A model generated the notes under the pieces. It searched no databases. It was not told the origin of the DNA and was given only the letters and a program-made list of their open reading frames with translations. The position numbers were made by a program, and so were the translations under genes. This document shows positions 3,036-28,373 of a stretch of 64,000 nt of DNA, in pieces. This DNA is from an uncultured Campylobacterota bacterium (lineage in GTDB: Bacteria; Campylobacterota; Campylobacteria; Campylobacterales; Sulfurovaceae), in assembly GCA_937141405.1 (NCBI GenBank), contig CAKZQQ010000005.1, positions 124,001 through 188,000 on the forward strand. Reading direction: 5' to 3'. Each line of letters begins with the position of its first letter. Within the stretch, counting starts at the first letter, position 1.

Positions 3036-3260
3036 ATGAAAACAACTGAGTTAGGACAAAAGCTCAAAGAAATGTATGACAAAGCACCCCATGGTGAAGC
3101 AGTGGCAATGATCCATTTATTTGGAATAAAATTTTCTGAAGACATTAAAGAAAGCAATGCCTCTTTCAAAGAAATTGCTGTTGCTGCTGGGATTGGTGAA
3201 TCATATGGAACTGAAATCAGTAAAGGCGCTAAACTCGCCAAGTATGTATCTGTTAAATAA
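3036..3260 (+). CDS. Small HTH-like domain protein, 74 aa
   Basis: I chose the ATG at 3036 because AAGTGAGG lies 6-7 bases before it. A longer frame from 2928 runs through the promoter and repeat. The protein resembles a widespread small family annotated as HTH-like: a charged N-terminal helix, an APHGEAVAMIHLFGI motif, then a possible helix-turn-helix (FKEIAVAAGIGESYGTEISKG). It may bind DNA; no partner gene is evident. The attC-like hairpin begins 4 bp after the stop codon, as in an integron cassette. Confidence 0.75.
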   Translation: MKTTELGQKLKEMYDKAPHGEAVAMIHLFGIKFSEDIKESNASFKEIAVAAGIGESYGTEISKGAKLAKYVSVK

Positions 3261-9683: not shown

Positions 9684-9722
9684 TCTGTGACGCAATCTGT
9701 GACGCTCTCATGATAGTATTAT
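9684..9722 (+). promoter_or_regulatory. Tandem TCTGTGACGC boxes and promoter
   Basis: TCTGTGACGC occurs twice (9684-9693 and 9696-9705), exactly 12 bp apart, followed by a -10-like TATTAT (9717-9722). The same tandem pair with the same spacing lies at 27797-27818. Direct repeats one helical turn apart are typical of OmpR/PhoB-type regulators; such a regulator is encoded at 25221-25895. The link is inferred. Confidence 0.65.
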
Positions 9723-9758: not shown

Positions 9759-9977
9759 ATGGAAAATTATGTAATGAATGAAAACCCTCAAGCCAATGGT
9801 GATTATGAGATTCACAGTAAAACCAAAGGCTGTTCGCATATGCCTCACATTCAAAATCAAATTGATTTAGGGTATTATGTATCATGTGGTGAAGCAGTTG
9901 CTGAGGCTAAAAAAAGATGGCCTCACAAAAGAATCAATGGCTGTTTTTACTGTTGCCTTCTTTGTCATACAAGCTAA
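9759..9977 (+). CDS. Conserved small Cys-rich protein, 72 aa
   Basis: The protein has a pattern I recall from many small uncharacterised bacterial proteins, often found in accessory regions: NENPQANGDYEIH, a Cys at about 25, LGYYVSCGEAVAEAKK, then GCFYCCLLCHTS at the C-terminus. Six Cys and several His suggest metal binding or disulfides; no signal peptide is present. The promoter upstream carries tandem TCTGTGACGC boxes shared with the GrpE-like gene at 27894, so it may belong to the same regulon. Function is unknown. The 136 bp after it hold only a short GAGAC/GTCTC hairpin (10049-10061). Confidence 0.75.
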   Translation: MENYVMNENPQANGDYEIHSKTKGCSHMPHIQNQIDLGYYVSCGEAVAEAKKRWPHKRINGCFYCCLLCHTS

Positions 9978-23003: not shown

Positions 23004-23196
23004 AGTGTCTCCCCAAATTCGTAATATAATATCTTGGTACATTTTTTTCACTTCTGTTTCATAGATTTTGATCTATCAAGTTATGAAAATATTGAACATG
23101 TATTATAGCAAAATCAAACAAGCAGTTAGCTGTATATTGGAGAAGATATCTGTGTGAGTAATAAAAATGATGTGCGTAACAGATCGCGTCATAAAA

Positions 23197-24372
23197 TCAA
23201 AACATTTTGCAATATTCTTTTAAAATGTCGATAGATTTTTCAAATGATTTCATAAAAAAACTATGTGTATGTGACAGAGCATCATAAAAAAGTTGCATTT
23301 GCCTAAGAGAGCGTTTGACAAGAGCAGGGTGTGGACGTTCGTTATCTAAAAAACTTTCTATTTTTTCACCAACACCTTCTGCTTCTAAAAGAAGCTTGAA
23401 TTCATATCTATTCATTGTTTTGTAGTATCTATGGTGAGTTTTGTCTTTTTGAAGTGAATGCTTTGAGCGCTCGTAGATTGTTTTTAAATCGATTTTTGAA
23501 AAACGACTCTCAAGCGGAAAGAGCATCTGAGCCAGTTTGACTACATAGAGTAGATTAATACCTGTATAGTAGCTATAAATTCCTTTTGCAGCATGAAGTT
23601 TTTGATAACCTGCTATAAGGTCATAAAGTTTCTCTTTATCAATGGGTCTTTCTTGTAATAGTTCTCTCTTGTGGTTGGAGAGCGCGGAAGTTCGAAGGTT
23701 GATGCTTTCAATAAAATCATCATCTATTAAAATATGAAGTATCTGTTTCGCTTCCCCATACTCTCCTAGACATCCCAGTGAGTTTGCTTCAATTTTTTGT
23801 ATTTTAGTAAAGAGGCGATATTTCCTATATAGAGGTGGCAAAATAGATGAGATGATGATTTCATACAATCCTTTTTTATAGGAAAGCATGAGCAATTTGA
23901 GTAGAAATTCTTGGTTTTCAACTTTTTTATCTAGTAGCCCAATGTGTAAAAATTGATTTATCATTTTTCTCTCTTCACTCTCTTCGTTGAGTTTAATAAA
24001 TCTATCAAGATGATCGATTTGCTCTTGAGTAATAGGAGTGCTAGAGTGAATAATATTTGAGATATCCAATGCCTCCTCGCCGGGAAATTGTCGCAATAGT
24101 AGCTTTTTTTGTATAGCTTCTCGTATCCGTTTTTTCTGAGTACTTTCGCTTATGTGCCATATATCTCTTTGAAAGTCAAATTTTTTTTCAATAGCATTTA
24201 AAAAATATCTGTCTCGTATTTCTCCACGGCGATTTATATACCCACTAAGCCTTTTTATATAGATTTTGTTTGTCGGTATGTTTATATAAGACAATAAATC
24301 TTTGTTGTAAGTGATGATGTTTGCTTCTTTGAGAGCATCAATAAGATAGCCGATGATTTCTGTGTGTTTCAT
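23197..24372 (-). CDS. Repeat-rich helical protein, 391 aa, unknown function
   Basis: No clear family. I chose ATG 24372 because CAAGGAGACCGC lies directly before it. The first ~70 residues (EIIGYLIDALKEANIITYNKD..INRRGEIRDRYFLNAIEKKF) look like a small, possibly DNA-binding, helical domain. The rest is helical and TPR-like, including NSLGCLGEYGEAKQILH and YYTGINLLYVVKLAQMLFP, the latter reminiscent of the TRAFs-binding (DUF4071) region. It is divergent from the LuxI-like gene (229 bp between starts), which suggests a regulator or partner of that gene; this is inference. Confidence 0.7.
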   Translation of the reverse strand: MKHTEIIGYLIDALKEANIITYNKDLLSYINIPTNKIYIKRLSGYINRRGEIRDRYFLNAIEKKFDFQRDIWHISESTQKKRIREAIQKKLLLRQFPGEEALDISNIIHSSTPITQEQIDHLDRFIKLNEESEERKMINQFLHIGLLDKKVENQEFLLKLLMLSYKKGLYEIIISSILPPLYRKYRLFTKIQKIEANSLGCLGEYGEAKQILHILIDDDFIESINLRTSALSNHKRELLQERPIDKEKLYDLIAGYQKLHAAKGIYSYYTGINLLYVVKLAQMLFPLESRFSKIDLKTIYERSKHSLQKDKTHHRYYKTMNRYEFKLLLEAEGVGEKIESFLDNERPHPALVKRSLRQMQLFYDALSHTHSFFMKSFEKSIDILKEYCKMF

Positions 24373-24440
24373 GCGGTCTCCTTGAAAGATAAAAAACTTT
24401 AATACCCATTGCATCAAGTCCGAAAAGTCGGAATTGAGTA

Positions 24441-24461
24441 TGTGACACTTACTTGTGCATC
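24441..24461 (+). promoter_or_regulatory. Degenerate TGTGAC-like boxes
   Basis: TGTGACAC (24441-24448) and TTGTGCATC (24453-24461) loosely resemble the tandem TCTGTGACGC boxes at 9684 and 27797, but the spacing is 13 bp and the second box is poor. They lie in the divergent promoter region upstream of the LuxI-like gene. Confidence 0.25.
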
Positions 24462-24508: not shown

Positions 24509-24607
24509 ATGACACAAACAAAGAAGAATTACTTACAAGATGAGTTGGGCTTTTGCCGTCCAAGCACAATGCATCAAAAACAAAAATACAAGAGCATTAT
24601 ATGCTAG
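24509..24607 (+). CDS. Short leader ORF, 32 codons, overlapping the LuxI-like gene
   Basis: ATG 24509 has the best ribosome site in the area (AAAGGAGTGGAAT). The frame encodes a 32-residue basic peptide starting MTQTKKNYLQDELG and ending in Cys (KSIIC). Its stop TAG (24605-24607) overlaps the ATG of the acyl synthase gene at 24601. The synthase start itself has only a weak ribosome site, so translation of the leader probably drives it. It could be a regulatory leader peptide, a small signal, or the N-terminus of a frameshifted synthase. It is too short to identify by homology. Confidence 0.5.
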   Translation: MTQTKKNYLQDELGFCRPSTMHQKQKYKSIIC

Positions 24608-25224
24608 ATTCAATAGCAAGAAATGCACTCTCTTTCAACAAAAAGTTATCATTGGAAGGCTGTAAAAACAATATTTTTCTTGCAACGACTCTGGATGAAT
24701 TGTTGGAGGTGTATAAAATACGAAGTAAAATCTACGCTAAATTACAATATAGCAATGAGTTTCCCGATGCCATAGAGGGATTGAATTTTGATGCTTATGA
24801 CGAGCATTCCGCTATTATCTATACGAAGAAGAATGGCAAAATTAGCGGTACTTGCAGATTGATATTTGATTGTGATAAATATAAATTGCCTATAGATGAA
24901 CATTATTCTTTGGATTATTTACGTAAAAAGGGTAAAAAGTTAGCGGAATTGTCACGATTGGTTATAGAACATGAGAATAAAGGTTTAAATCAAGAGTTTA
25001 AATTGCTTACAAAGGGTGTCTATTTTACTATGATTAATAACGGTATTACCGACGTTGTATCTGTTATGAGCGAAGAGCATTATAGGTGGTATGATAAGTT
25101 TGGAGGATTTCAAATAGAAGAGAGATTTGAGAGTTATGGAAATATAGGCAAACCTTTTGTCGTCACATCGTGGAATGTAGCAAAAATATCAGATTTTTTT
25201 AAGAGAGTTTTTTTAAGAGATTAA
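24601..25224 (+). CDS. LuxI/FeeM-like N-acyl synthase (GNAT fold)
   Basis: The 207-aa protein carries the spaced signature of acyl-homoserine-lactone synthases and related FeeM N-acyl-amino-acid synthases: Arg41 (YKIRSKIY), Asp64-x-x-Asp67 (FDAYD), Arg86 (GTCRLI), Glu116-x-x-Arg119 (ELSRLVI). Distances from the first Arg (+23, +26, +45, +75, +78) closely match LuxI. The usual Trp is missing. Product could be an acyl-homoserine lactone, an acyl amino acid or another acylated compound. ATG 24601 overlaps a leader ORF; a TTG at 24553 is the alternative start. It ends convergently with the response regulator gene (4-bp overlap). Confidence 0.72.
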   Translation: MLDSIARNALSFNKKLSLEGCKNNIFLATTLDELLEVYKIRSKIYAKLQYSNEFPDAIEGLNFDAYDEHSAIIYTKKNGKISGTCRLIFDCDKYKLPIDEHYSLDYLRKKGKKLAELSRLVIEHENKGLNQEFKLLTKGVYFTMINNGITDVVSVMSEEHYRWYDKFGGFQIEERFESYGNIGKPFVVTSWNVAKISDFFKRVFLRD

Positions 25225-25895
25225 TCTTTTATCACGAGTCGATACCCAAAAGAAGGAATGGTTTCGATTGGAAGATCTTTTAGTTTCATTCGTAATCTAT
25301 ATACAAGGTTTCTCAAGGAGTTCTCGGCAAGTGGCGCATTTTCACCCCAAAGATGTTCTTCTATGACATTGACGGGAACTATGCTTCCCTTGGACTCTAC
25401 GAGTAACTGTAAAAATAATCTCTCGTTGGAGCCGAGATAGATAGGTACTTTTTTGTGGTATATCTTTTTTGATTTATTATCATAGTAATACTCACGACCT
25501 AGAGATTGTAAAGCATTTTTTTGTTGTATTTTATTGAGAACAATCATGAGGTTGGATTTGAGTTCTTCACGTCTAAATGGTTTTGTGAGATAAGCAGCAG
25601 GGTCTGTTTTGGAGGCTTCTCTCATAGTATCATCGTTATTATCAGAAGTGAGATAGATAAATGGTATAGGATCATTTTCGGATATTTTTTTTGCAAGTTC
25701 TATACCGTTTTTTTTACTCTTAAGATCGATATCCAAAAGTATGATATCCGGCTTTTTTTGCTTTATACTCTGCAAAGCATCCTCGTAACTACTCACAATA
25801 TCTGTGACACTATAACCCATTTTAATGAGTGATTTTTTTATCTCAAGCGCAGTGATTGATACATCTTCAACGATTAAAATATTAATTTCGTTCAT
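25221..25895 (-). CDS. OmpR-type response regulator
   Basis: This 224-aa response regulator has a receiver domain at residues 4-120: acidic pair Glu10/Asp11, phospho-acceptor Asp55 in IILLDIDL, Lys105 in YLTKPF. A winged-helix Trans_reg_C domain follows at about 135-222 (LGSNERLFLQLLVESKG, ENSLRNLVYRLRMKL, IPSFGYRLV). The start overlaps the kinase gene end by 14 bp, so the two form an operon. Tandem TCTGTGACGC boxes 77 bp upstream of the kinase start are good candidate binding sites; that link is inferred. Confidence 0.92.
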   Translation of the reverse strand: MNEINILIVEDVSITALEIKKSLIKMGYSVTDIVSSYEDALQSIKQKKPDIILLDIDLKSKKNGIELAKKISENDPIPFIYLTSDNNDDTMREASKTDPAAYLTKPFRREELKSNLMIVLNKIQQKNALQSLGREYYYDNKSKKIYHKKVPIYLGSNERLFLQLLVESKGSIVPVNVIEEHLWGENAPLAENSLRNLVYRLRMKLKDLPIETIPSFGYRLVIKD

Positions 25896-27720
25896 TATTG
25901 CTCCATAGAATATTTATCTCGGTTCCGTTTTCTGTATCGATACGTAGCTCTCCGCCAAGTTGATTTTTGGCTAGAGTATCAATGATAGTTAGCCCTAGGG
26001 TATCACTCAGAGAATCATATGTAAAACCTATACCGTTATCCTTTATCATAAAATGATATATGTTATCACTCTTATCCAATGTAATCAATGCTTCTCCGGA
26101 GTTTGTATGATTAAAGGCGTGCTGATAGATGTTTGTGATTGATTCATTGAGGATGAAGCCACAATATACGGCATCATCAGAGTTTAGCTCTGCTTTAGTC
26201 TCCAAATTTATGGTGATATATGGTTTTTGAAAACTTTTTTGCACATTGCCTATAAGTGATGAAAAATAATCATAAGCATTGACTGTAGAGATATTTTCTT
26301 GTGTGTTTAAAAGTGCATAAAGATCATTGATTGCAAAAACCTTATTTTCTAAATTTTGCAAGATTACTTTCCCCTCTTTGCTCTGGGTTTCATCTCTTTG
26401 GAGTCGCAAAAATGAGACGATGGTCTGCATAGAGTTTTTTACTCTATGGTTAAGCTCTTTAAGGAGTAGTTTTTTCTCTTCTAGAGATTTTTTTAGTGCT
26501 CCTGTTTTATTTTCTACGATACGAGAGAGTCTATCTGTCTCTTCTTCCTGATAAGATATGAGTTTATTTTGTGCAGCTATTTTCTCTTTGCCAAGTTGTT
26601 TGATTTTGTCTGCAAGTGAGAGAGAGAAGATGACCGATTCGGCAGTTATAGAAAATTCTGTATAGTAAGGATAAGAAACAAAAATATCGTAGATTCCCCA
26701 ACTTGAGAGAAACATAAGAAGTGCGGAGGTGAAGAAGAGTATCCACCCAATCGTGATAAATTTAGCTTGCCTGTTGTTTCGCAATAATGCATAGATTGTT
26801 GTTCCAAAGAGTATAAAGAGAAGCACAACAGGTGTGATACTGCGCAGTTGATTGAGATCAAGCAAGAAAAAGAGAATCGTCAAAAAGATGAAAGCGCCGA
26901 TACTATAGTTTAAAAAACGATTGAGTTTAGGGTATTGTTGTGTATTGAGGATACTCATCGTAAAAAGTGCTAAAAAAAGTGTCGGTATAGCAACGATAAA
27001 GGATGAGTATTTTATCGTTGTGAGAATACCTTCATGGGGCAATATATATAGATTTGCAACACCTTTATAGAGGAGATGATGCATGGTAATGCCGATGAAA
27101 GCAAGTACATAGTAGAGGTAACTTCTATCTCTTGTGCTAAGATAAACGATGAGGTTATAGATGATGATGATGCTCATCGCCCCAAAAAAAAGAGCCAATA
27201 TAAATTGGTAATGTATCTCTTCTTTGTAGAAAGCATCCTCGTCCCACAATTTCATTTGAACTATAAGGGTTGTGATATCTGATGTAGCTTTTATGTAAAA
27301 TGTTTTAGACTCATTTGGGAGCAAGGTAATCTTAAAAGAGGGGTGGATAGATTTTCTATTCTCTGCAGTATCCAGGAGCCCATCTTTTGCTAAGAGTCTA
27401 TCGGGGTTTGCTTCATAAAGCATAATGTTTGAAGTAAGAGGGTTCTCATATTCGATAATCCTATGGATAGTTTGTGAGGATGTGTTGTTGAGATCAAAGC
27501 GTATCCAAACATCAAAATCAGGCGAATAGCCGTAACTCAACATCTTTTTGCTATTTGGTTGAAACTCTTTATCTTTTACCGTGTGGATAGTGTCTGATCT
27601 ATTGTGATCGATATAGATTTGAGCATGAGGCAAGAGCTCATAGAAGGTTTTTTTTGCATCGATATCTAAAGCAAATAAAAAACTGTTAAAAAGAAAAATG
27701 AGGCATATAAACCTTTTCAT
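25882..27720 (-). CDS. 7TMR-DISM sensor histidine kinase (HisKA_2 type)
   Basis: About 612 aa. Order: signal peptide (1-18), periplasmic 7TMR-DISMED2-like beta domain (about 22-160, with WIRFDLNNTS), seven transmembrane helices (about 170-372, 7TMR-DISM_7TM), a coiled coil, HisKA_2 phospho-acceptor region (LKELNHRVKNSMQTI, His425) and a HATPase domain (FILNESITNIYQHAF, DNGIGF, LGLTIIDTLA). DISM receptors are thought to sense carbohydrates or other small molecules. I use ATG 27720; a TTG start 12 bases upstream is possible. It is coupled to the response regulator gene. Confidence 0.9.
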   Translation of the reverse strand: MKRFICLIFLFNSFLFALDIDAKKTFYELLPHAQIYIDHNRSDTIHTVKDKEFQPNSKKMLSYGYSPDFDVWIRFDLNNTSSQTIHRIIEYENPLTSNIMLYEANPDRLLAKDGLLDTAENRKSIHPSFKITLLPNESKTFYIKATSDITTLIVQMKLWDEDAFYKEEIHYQFILALFFGAMSIIIIYNLIVYLSTRDRSYLYYVLAFIGITMHHLLYKGVANLYILPHEGILTTIKYSSFIVAIPTLFLALFTMSILNTQQYPKLNRFLNYSIGAFIFLTILFFLLDLNQLRSITPVVLLFILFGTTIYALLRNNRQAKFITIGWILFFTSALLMFLSSWGIYDIFVSYPYYTEFSITAESVIFSLSLADKIKQLGKEKIAAQNKLISYQEEETDRLSRIVENKTGALKKSLEEKKLLLKELNHRVKNSMQTIVSFLRLQRDETQSKEGKVILQNLENKVFAINDLYALLNTQENISTVNAYDYFSSLIGNVQKSFQKPYITINLETKAELNSDDAVYCGFILNESITNIYQHAFNHTNSGEALITLDKSDNIYHFMIKDNGIGFTYDSLSDTLGLTIIDTLAKNQLGGELRIDTENGTEINILWSNNERN

Positions 27721-27796
27721 ACAATAAACCAATCTTAATATATACTTTAATTATATTTTTTTAATTATAGTGGAAAATAATAAAAATTTAACACTA

Positions 27797-27832
27797 TCTG
27801 TGACGCTATCTGTGACGCTTTATGATTATAAT
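27797..27832 (+). promoter_or_regulatory. Tandem TCTGTGACGC boxes in the kinase/GrpE-like divergent region
   Basis: TCTGTGACGC occurs at 27797-27806 and 27809-27818, 12 bp apart, then TATAAT (27827-27832) for the + strand gene at 27894. The second box sits where a -35 would be, fitting activation by an OmpR-type regulator. The same pair precedes the gene at 9759. Possible minus-strand -10 boxes for the kinase are at 27764-27769 and 27750-27755. Confidence 0.7.
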
Positions 27833-27893: not shown

Positions 27894-28373
27894 ATGAAAA
27901 AAAATACAGATACACAATCTTTAGATCTAGCGCAAATCCATCAAAATCAAAAAATTATTTTAGATTTGTATGAAAAAAGATGTAAACATGAGAAGATAAA
28001 AGAAGATACGCTTGAGAGGCTTTATGAAGAGCTCGATGCTCTTAAGCACAATAAAGAGTTTCAAAAGATAAAACCCTTTTATCTCGATTTGATTTCCCTC
28101 TATGATCGTGTGGCTGACCTAAAAAAAGAAGATGATGCATTGAGCACGATATGCGACGAGCTGTTAGAGGTTCTGCAAAAGCAAAATATAGAGATCATAA
28201 AGATGCAAGATGACATCCTTGATCTCTCTTTGCAAAAAGTTATTGACATAGAAATCGTAGATGATGCCAATGCACATTCGAAGGTTGTTAAAGTTTTGCG
28301 AGACGGCTTTAGATATAAAGATAAGCTTTTAAGACCTCAAGAAGTTACAATTGGAGCACATATCAAGCTTTGA
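27894..28373 (+). CDS. GrpE-like protein
   Basis: This 159-aa protein resembles the Hsp70 nucleotide-exchange factor GrpE. It has a long N-terminal helical part (about 8-110) and a C-terminal beta domain with ANAHSKVVKVLRDGFRYKDKLLRPQEVTIGA, matching the GrpE 'GY...drvLRPa.V.V' end. It lacks a typical acidic GrpE N-terminus and is divergent, so it is probably a second, specialised GrpE-like protein; the canonical hrcA-grpE-dnaK operon is not in this window. Its promoter holds tandem TCTGTGACGC boxes. GAAGGAAGC precedes the ATG. Confidence 0.72.
   Translation: MKKNTDTQSLDLAQIHQNQKIILDLYEKRCKHEKIKEDTLERLYEELDALKHNKEFQKIKPFYLDLISLYDRVADLKKEDDALSTICDELLEVLQKQNIEIIKMQDDILDLSLQKVIDIEIVDDANAHSKVVKVLRDGFRYKDKLLRPQEVTIGAHIKL

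Follow-up and report, generated by a model that had tools for sequence, protein, structure and literature searches.

A FeeM/LuxI-fold N-acyl synthase adjoining a 7TMR-DISM sensor kinase and a response regulator forms a candidate chemical-signaling module in Campylobacterota

In the LuxM/LuxN, AinS/AinR, and CqsA/CqsS pairs, the synthase gene lies next to the gene for its membrane sensor kinase. FeeM-type enzymes are tyrosine acylases, and we know of none that makes up one half of a sensor-kinase module. The ligands of 7TMR-DISM receptors are, to our knowledge, mostly unknown. For one of these receptors, SagS, glucose-6-phosphate is a reported signal (PMC8544897). Among Campylobacterota, the signaling chemistry that we found described is that of LuxS/AI-2 (e.g., PMC2628731).

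Here, we analyzed a 64,000-nucleotide stretch of DNA (the window) from an uncultured Campylobacterota bacterium of the Sulfurovaceae, in which a putative synthase gene adjoins genes for a 7TMR-DISM kinase and a response regulator. As in LuxM/LuxN, AinS/AinR, and CqsA/CqsS, the synthase adjoins a membrane sensor kinase, but the synthase families of these pairs are unrelated to the window synthase and their sensor domains differ. Compared with LuxM/LuxN-type pairs, the window module has a 7TMR-DISM sensor and a DNA-binding regulator with its own putative operator. The kinase has the 7TMR-DISM sensor architecture of RetS, LadS, and SagS and is paired here with a small-molecule synthase. FeeM (PF21926; PDB 2g0b) falls in the same profile family as the window synthase and is its best structural match, but has no equivalents of synthase residues R86 and R119 in the aligned stretch (GTISI and EVVQ). 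The LuxI-type synthases LasI, BjaI, and TraI are the next-best fold matches; six catalytic residues align with those of TraI, while the window synthase has Y at the position of TraI W35, and its partner is a membrane kinase, whereas that of LuxI-type synthases is LuxR. The acyltransferase of PEP-CTERM/exosortase systems (TIGR03694) is a partial match, and exosortase context was not seen in the loci examined. The parts of the module are known by family, and by analogy its function resembles that of LuxM/LuxN-type pairs.

The synthase gene (24601 to 25224, forward strand) encodes a FeeM/LuxI-fold N-acyl synthase of 207 aa with a complete catalytic domain; its ATG is at 24601, its stop codon at 25222 to 25224, and a TTG at 24553 is a possible alternative in-frame start. 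In a Pfam search, the protein matched PF21926 (FeeM) with 76 bits (cut-off, 27; E = 3.8e-21), and all 25 synthase relatives matched the same family (E ≤ 0.01). The score against PF00765 (LuxI) was 15.2 bits, which is under the 24-bit cut-off, and 4 of the 25 relatives matched this family (best E, 2e-4). A match to Acetyltransf_5 was barely over its cut-off, OlsB-type acyltransferase models matched weakly, and TIGR03694 scored 35.4 bits over residues 25 to 125, below its cut-off of 112 bits. The AlphaFold (AF2) model of the 207-aa form, for which the input was a 25-sequence alignment, has a mean pLDDT of 92.7 and a pTM of 0.89, with a confident first helix. Searching with this model, Foldseek returned FeeM (PDB 2g0b) as the top match (E = 2.1e-10; TM, 0.68/0.74), followed by LasI (7.5e-9), BjaI, RpaI, MesI, and TofI, with ordinary GNATs ranking lower.

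A first-pass annotation made from the DNA sequence had described a LuxI/FeeM-like acyl synthase with R41, D64-x2-D67, R86, and E116-x2-R119, and our analyses bear out both the family and the residues. R41, D64, D67, E116, and R119 are conserved in 25/25 aligned relatives and R86 in 24/25, a degree of conservation beyond chance. In a profile alignment with two LuxI references (TraI of the Ti plasmid and TraI of pNGR234a), which is weak when taken alone (E = 0.054), R41, D64, D67, R86, E116, and R119 align with TraI R25, D46, D49, R70, E101, and R104. The R-D-D-R-E-R set of LuxI is, thus, present in the synthase, although other N-acyltransferases may have the same set. Based on Pfam, Foldseek, and the TraI alignment, the synthase belongs to the FeeM family by profile and fold and is LuxI-like by its catalytic residues; the structure prediction and family searches that the annotation had proposed, accordingly, led to FeeM, with LuxI PF00765 and TIGR03694 remaining under their cut-offs. 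As predicted from the fold and the residues, the product of the synthase is probably an acylated small molecule.

Convergent with the synthase gene, the gene at 25221 to 25895 (reverse strand) encodes a 224-aa response regulator with a receiver (PF00072, 2.6e-20) and a winged-helix Trans_reg_C domain (PF00486, 1.5e-12), i.e., the PhoB/OmpR-type domain make-up, and has the receiver residues D55, T83, and K105. Adjacent to it, an intact gene (25882 to 27720, reverse strand) encodes a 612-aa sensor kinase with 7TMR-DISMED2, 7TMR-DISM_7TM, HisKA_2, and HATPase domains (PF07695, 1.3e-32; PF07696, 5.5e-19; PF07568, 3.1e-17). Divergent from the synthase gene, the gene at 23197 to 24372 (reverse strand) encodes a 391-aa protein with a TPR-like Pfam match below the cut-off; an orthologue search found close counterparts in just five genomes of the family, all of which have the synthase, with the gene adjoining it in each. 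A gene for a GrpE-domain protein (PF01025, 3e-10) at 27894 to 28373, divergent from the kinase gene, is located behind an operator at 27799 described below and is possibly in the same regulon. The Rfam matches in the window are tRNAs only, and a search of phage records for a phage origin gave no match.

Consistent with the first-pass suggestion that such a synthase is uncommon in Campylobacterota, we found a synthase over the family cut-off in 25 of 397 genomes of the phylum and in 14 of 175 genomes of the window's own family. A profile search of genome contigs yielded 29 named loci, as opposed to none in a single-sequence search; these loci span Sulfurovum, Nitratifractor, Arcobacter/Aliarcobacter, Malaciobacter, and Sulfurospirillum and include two near-identical contigs of one assembly (L081 and L082). 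The free-living, non-pathogenic Malaciobacter halophilus (L073) is one host that has synthase, kinase, and regulator together. Of the 29 loci, 27 have the regulator and 26 the kinase adjoining the synthase; gene order and orientation vary, with convergent arrangements in some lineages and co-directional ones elsewhere. The synthases of L075 and L089 have neither kinase nor regulator nearby, and the kinase also occurs in several genomes that have no synthase. Within the window's genus, the synthase, the kinase (counted as close homologues only, E ≤ 1e-80), and the gene at 23197 to 24372 occur together in two genomes (G000 and G006) and are jointly absent from the other nine.

The module extends to plasmids, with the synthase present on six Aliarcobacter/Arcobacter plasmids. 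On two that were inspected, it is annotated as "hypothetical protein" and adjoins genes annotated as "7TM diverse intracellular signaling" and "response regulator"; a paper on one such Aliarcobacter plasmid names the kinase and the regulator (PMC6690266). On plasmid pM830MA (L157, 5857 to 6614), intact kinase and regulator genes accompany a synthase gene that a frameshift interrupts midway through the catalytic domain. In another genome (G423; L136, 145 to 339), a 64-aa remnant of the synthase N-terminus has two operators upstream.

A comparison of upstream regions revealed a direct repeat with a 12-bp period, YGTGAC-N6-YGTGAC, which we refer to as the operator. It is located on the coding strand at −55 to −64 of the synthase start in 14 Arcobacteraceae/Sulfurospirillum-type loci, which are the majority of such synthase genes, and of 28 GTGAC pairs 5' of the synthase, 18 have a spacing of exactly 12. 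Among the 397 genomes of the phylum, exact TGTGAC-N6-TGTGAC is present in 22 of 23 module genomes (mean, 4.4) versus 33 of 374 others (mean, 0.13; Fisher p = 4e-20 in a test that ignores shared ancestry). This count leaves out G246 and G375, whose PF21926 matches are weak or paralogous; if they are included, the fraction is 22/25. The module genome without the exact operator is G471, and two synthase-less genomes have the operator with the kinase-regulator pair beside it. In complete Arcobacteraceae genomes, operator copies are few, and many lie 54 to 75 bp before start codons, a layout that, by analogy, may be like that of PhoB boxes that take the place of the −35 element. The Arcobacteraceae genes behind the operator encode the synthase, a second regulator, small membrane proteins, and a DUF4062 protein; in other genomes, they include genes for lipoprotein-like and outer-membrane-secretion-like proteins, named by sequence appearance only. 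In L148 and L149, operators are located upstream of genes for two-partner-secretion-like outer-membrane proteins, and L064 has genes of this kind close to the module.

The window genome has two exact operator copies, at 27799 and 9686, and the sister genome G006 has two, both within the module. The copy TGTGACGCTATCTGTGACG at 27799 to 27817 (forward strand) is upstream of the kinase gene, at the same place as in the module locus of G006 (L065), and a third, degenerate half-site starts at 27787. Behind the second copy (9686 to 9704, forward strand), at a distance of 73 nt, lies a candidate target gene, a Cys-rich ORF of 72 aa (9759 to 9977) that belongs to no known family; this candidate is weak because a homologue is present in G001 of the genus but not in G006. 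A degraded operator with two mismatches, the L065 counterpart of which is exact, is located at 23175 to 23193 (reverse strand). The synthase promoter in the window lacks the exact operator and contains only a degenerate operator half-site and a different direct repeat. The half-site, TGTGACACTTAC (24443 to 24460, forward strand), is at −66, which would match the operator position in Arcobacter synthase promoters. The other element is a 9-bp direct repeat, TCCGAAAAG-TCGGAATTG (24419 to 24436, forward strand), which is unique in the genome, identical in L065, and similar in L056 and L049. The TCNGAAAAG repeat of this promoter was tested as a regulon motif and rejected, with one copy in the genome.

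In an exploratory distance-matrix test on 21 modules, controlled for the kinase domain and the regulator, the synthase co-diverged with the 7TM domain (partial r, 0.46; 0/1,000 permutations; leave-one-out, 0.43 to 0.53), and did so with 0.31 (9/1,000) in the Arcobacteraceae/Sulfurospirillum-type loci only. By comparison, the partial r was 0.01 for synthase and kinase domain and −0.08 for synthase and regulator, while regulator and kinase domain gave the expected positive-control value of 0.43. The co-divergence with the 7TM domain favors, with moderate strength, a ligand-receptor relation between the synthase product and the kinase, and a lipophilic acyl ligand would be more in keeping with sensing by the 7TM domain than by the periplasmic one.

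Judged from the sequences, linkage and the shared operator show that synthase, kinase, and regulator are one regulatory unit. Because the synthase is almost always beside the 7TM kinase and the regulator, with a common control site, the unit has the appearance of an undescribed chemical-signaling circuit. We lean toward the interpretation that the module is an autoinducing circuit working like LuxM/LuxN and that the synthase gene in the window carries a 5' frameshift. In such a circuit, as the fold and residues of the synthase suggest, the enzyme would use acyl-ACP or acyl-CoA to acylate an amino group, with SAM, an amino acid, or another compound as the possible acceptor, giving a small lipophilic molecule. 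The neighboring 7TMR-DISM kinase would perceive this molecule via its 7TM domain and phosphorylate the adjacent winged-helix regulator, which would in turn bind the tandem TGTGAC-N6-TGTGAC sites observed at the synthase, the kinase, and a few other promoters, and binding at these operators may close a positive feedback loop. Against a signal circuit speak the missing exact operator at the window synthase promoter, the solo synthases of L075 and L089, the kinase-only genomes, and G471. Alternatively, the two-component system may sense an envelope or environmental cue and control the synthase as an output enzyme, with the N-acyl amino acid serving as a membrane lipid or surfactant in an OlsB-like manner. 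For such an enzyme, the operator and linkage pattern is expected to be identical, and the weak matches to OlsB-type and PEP-CTERM-associated acyltransferase models as well as some genomes in which kinase, regulator, and operator persist although the synthase is absent, and in which the targets are lipoprotein-like, are in its favor. We nevertheless regard it as unlikely, if a serious contender, given that the synthase co-diverges with the 7TM domain and not with the regulator and that inspection of sequence starts in the loci examined showed neither an OlsA-like partner nor exosortase genes. A synthase that is an ordinary GNAT acetyltransferase lying beside a two-component system by chance would share the GNAT superfamily fold, but is hardly credible: FeeM and LuxI-type enzymes outrank ordinary GNATs in Foldseek, and the R/D/E/R residues, the loss of which in homologues would have pointed to an ordinary GNAT, are kept in the 25 relatives. 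Moreover, linkage across several families and the operator contradict chance.

Beyond the autoinducing circuit itself, we consider it an evenly balanced question whether the module represents a new class of cell-to-cell signaling, in which a FeeM/LuxI-fold N-acyl signal is read by a 7TMR-DISM kinase and repeated loss of the synthase has left signal-mute, receptor-keeping lineages. The accessible portions of the open-access literature, where absence is not proof, contained no description of a 7TMR-DISM kinase that has a FeeM/LuxI-type synthase as its partner and no report of acyl-type quorum sensing in Campylobacterota. If true, the proposal would provide the largely orphan 7TMR-DISM receptors with their first cognate synthase and Campylobacterota with their first case of acyl-type quorum sensing. 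With a receptor kinase that has its own synthase adjoining, 7TMR-DISM ligand discovery would become a direct experiment.

The synthase had also been suggested to be controlled by translation of an overlapping 32-codon leader ORF with a strong ribosome site. Both ORF and site are real: the ORF extends from 24509 to 24607 (forward strand; translation, MTQTKKNYLQDELGFCRPSTMHQKQKYKSIIC followed by the stop codon), AAAGGAG is ~7 nt 5' of its ATG, and its TAG overlaps the synthase ATG within ATGCTAG. In relatives, however, it is the full-length synthase gene that starts from this ribosome site. In the closest relative, L065 (G006, JAFGVX010000056; 81% identical), the synthase is a single ORF of 241 codons that starts at the counterpart of the leader ATG, and in the nucleotide alignment the window has a one-base gap at ~24546, next to a short run of T, with a second gap, of 3 bases, farther along. 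Nearly all other orthologues, including L067, have an N-terminal segment of 35 to 50 residues in frame. The exceptions are L066 and L068, in which an A9 tract within this poorly conserved segment divides the 5' end, so that a separate small ORF exists only in the window and, elsewhere in the segment, in these two loci. Because L065 and almost every other orthologue have the segment joined in frame to the synthase and the window has the one-base gap, the leader is the detached native N-terminal segment of the synthase, out of frame, and the proposed control by leader translation is not supported. An in-frame fusion in homologues is also the outcome that the first-pass annotation had named as refuting its leader proposal. 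Relative to the L065 sequence, the 5' end of the window synthase gene, thus, carries a one-base frameshift.

A true regulatory peptide acting by translational coupling or attenuation would fit the strong ribosome site, the ATGCTAG overlap, and the split 5' ends of L066 and L068, but we consider it very improbable in light of the in-frame segment in relatives and the gap relative to L065. Also, in the fused frame, the 5' segment is 29% diverged from L065 with third-position bias absent (27/92 sites, 8/12/7), whereas the synthase body is 20% diverged with the bias present (32/24/70). It is a real possibility, to which we give somewhat less than even weight, that the one-base difference arose in assembly and that the actual gene specifies the ordinary fused synthase of ~240 aa, which would be compatible with the signaling module. 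The genome is a draft of 8 contigs, the gap adjoins a short T run, and kinase and regulator are intact; on the other hand, the synthase copies of pM830MA, L066, and L068 are also frame-broken, so real breaks may occur. With a genuine frameshift, the catalytic domain could be translated only from the ATG at 24601, possibly through reinitiation at ATGCTAG, which would give the 207-aa enzyme, or from the TTG at 24553. Programmed −1 frameshifting is not favored because inspection by eye of 24541 to 24607 in the leader frame found no canonical XXXYYYZ heptamer. The A9 tract is common to two species (L066, ~76 to 84; L068, ~3072 to 3081) and could reflect transcriptional slippage or phase variation.
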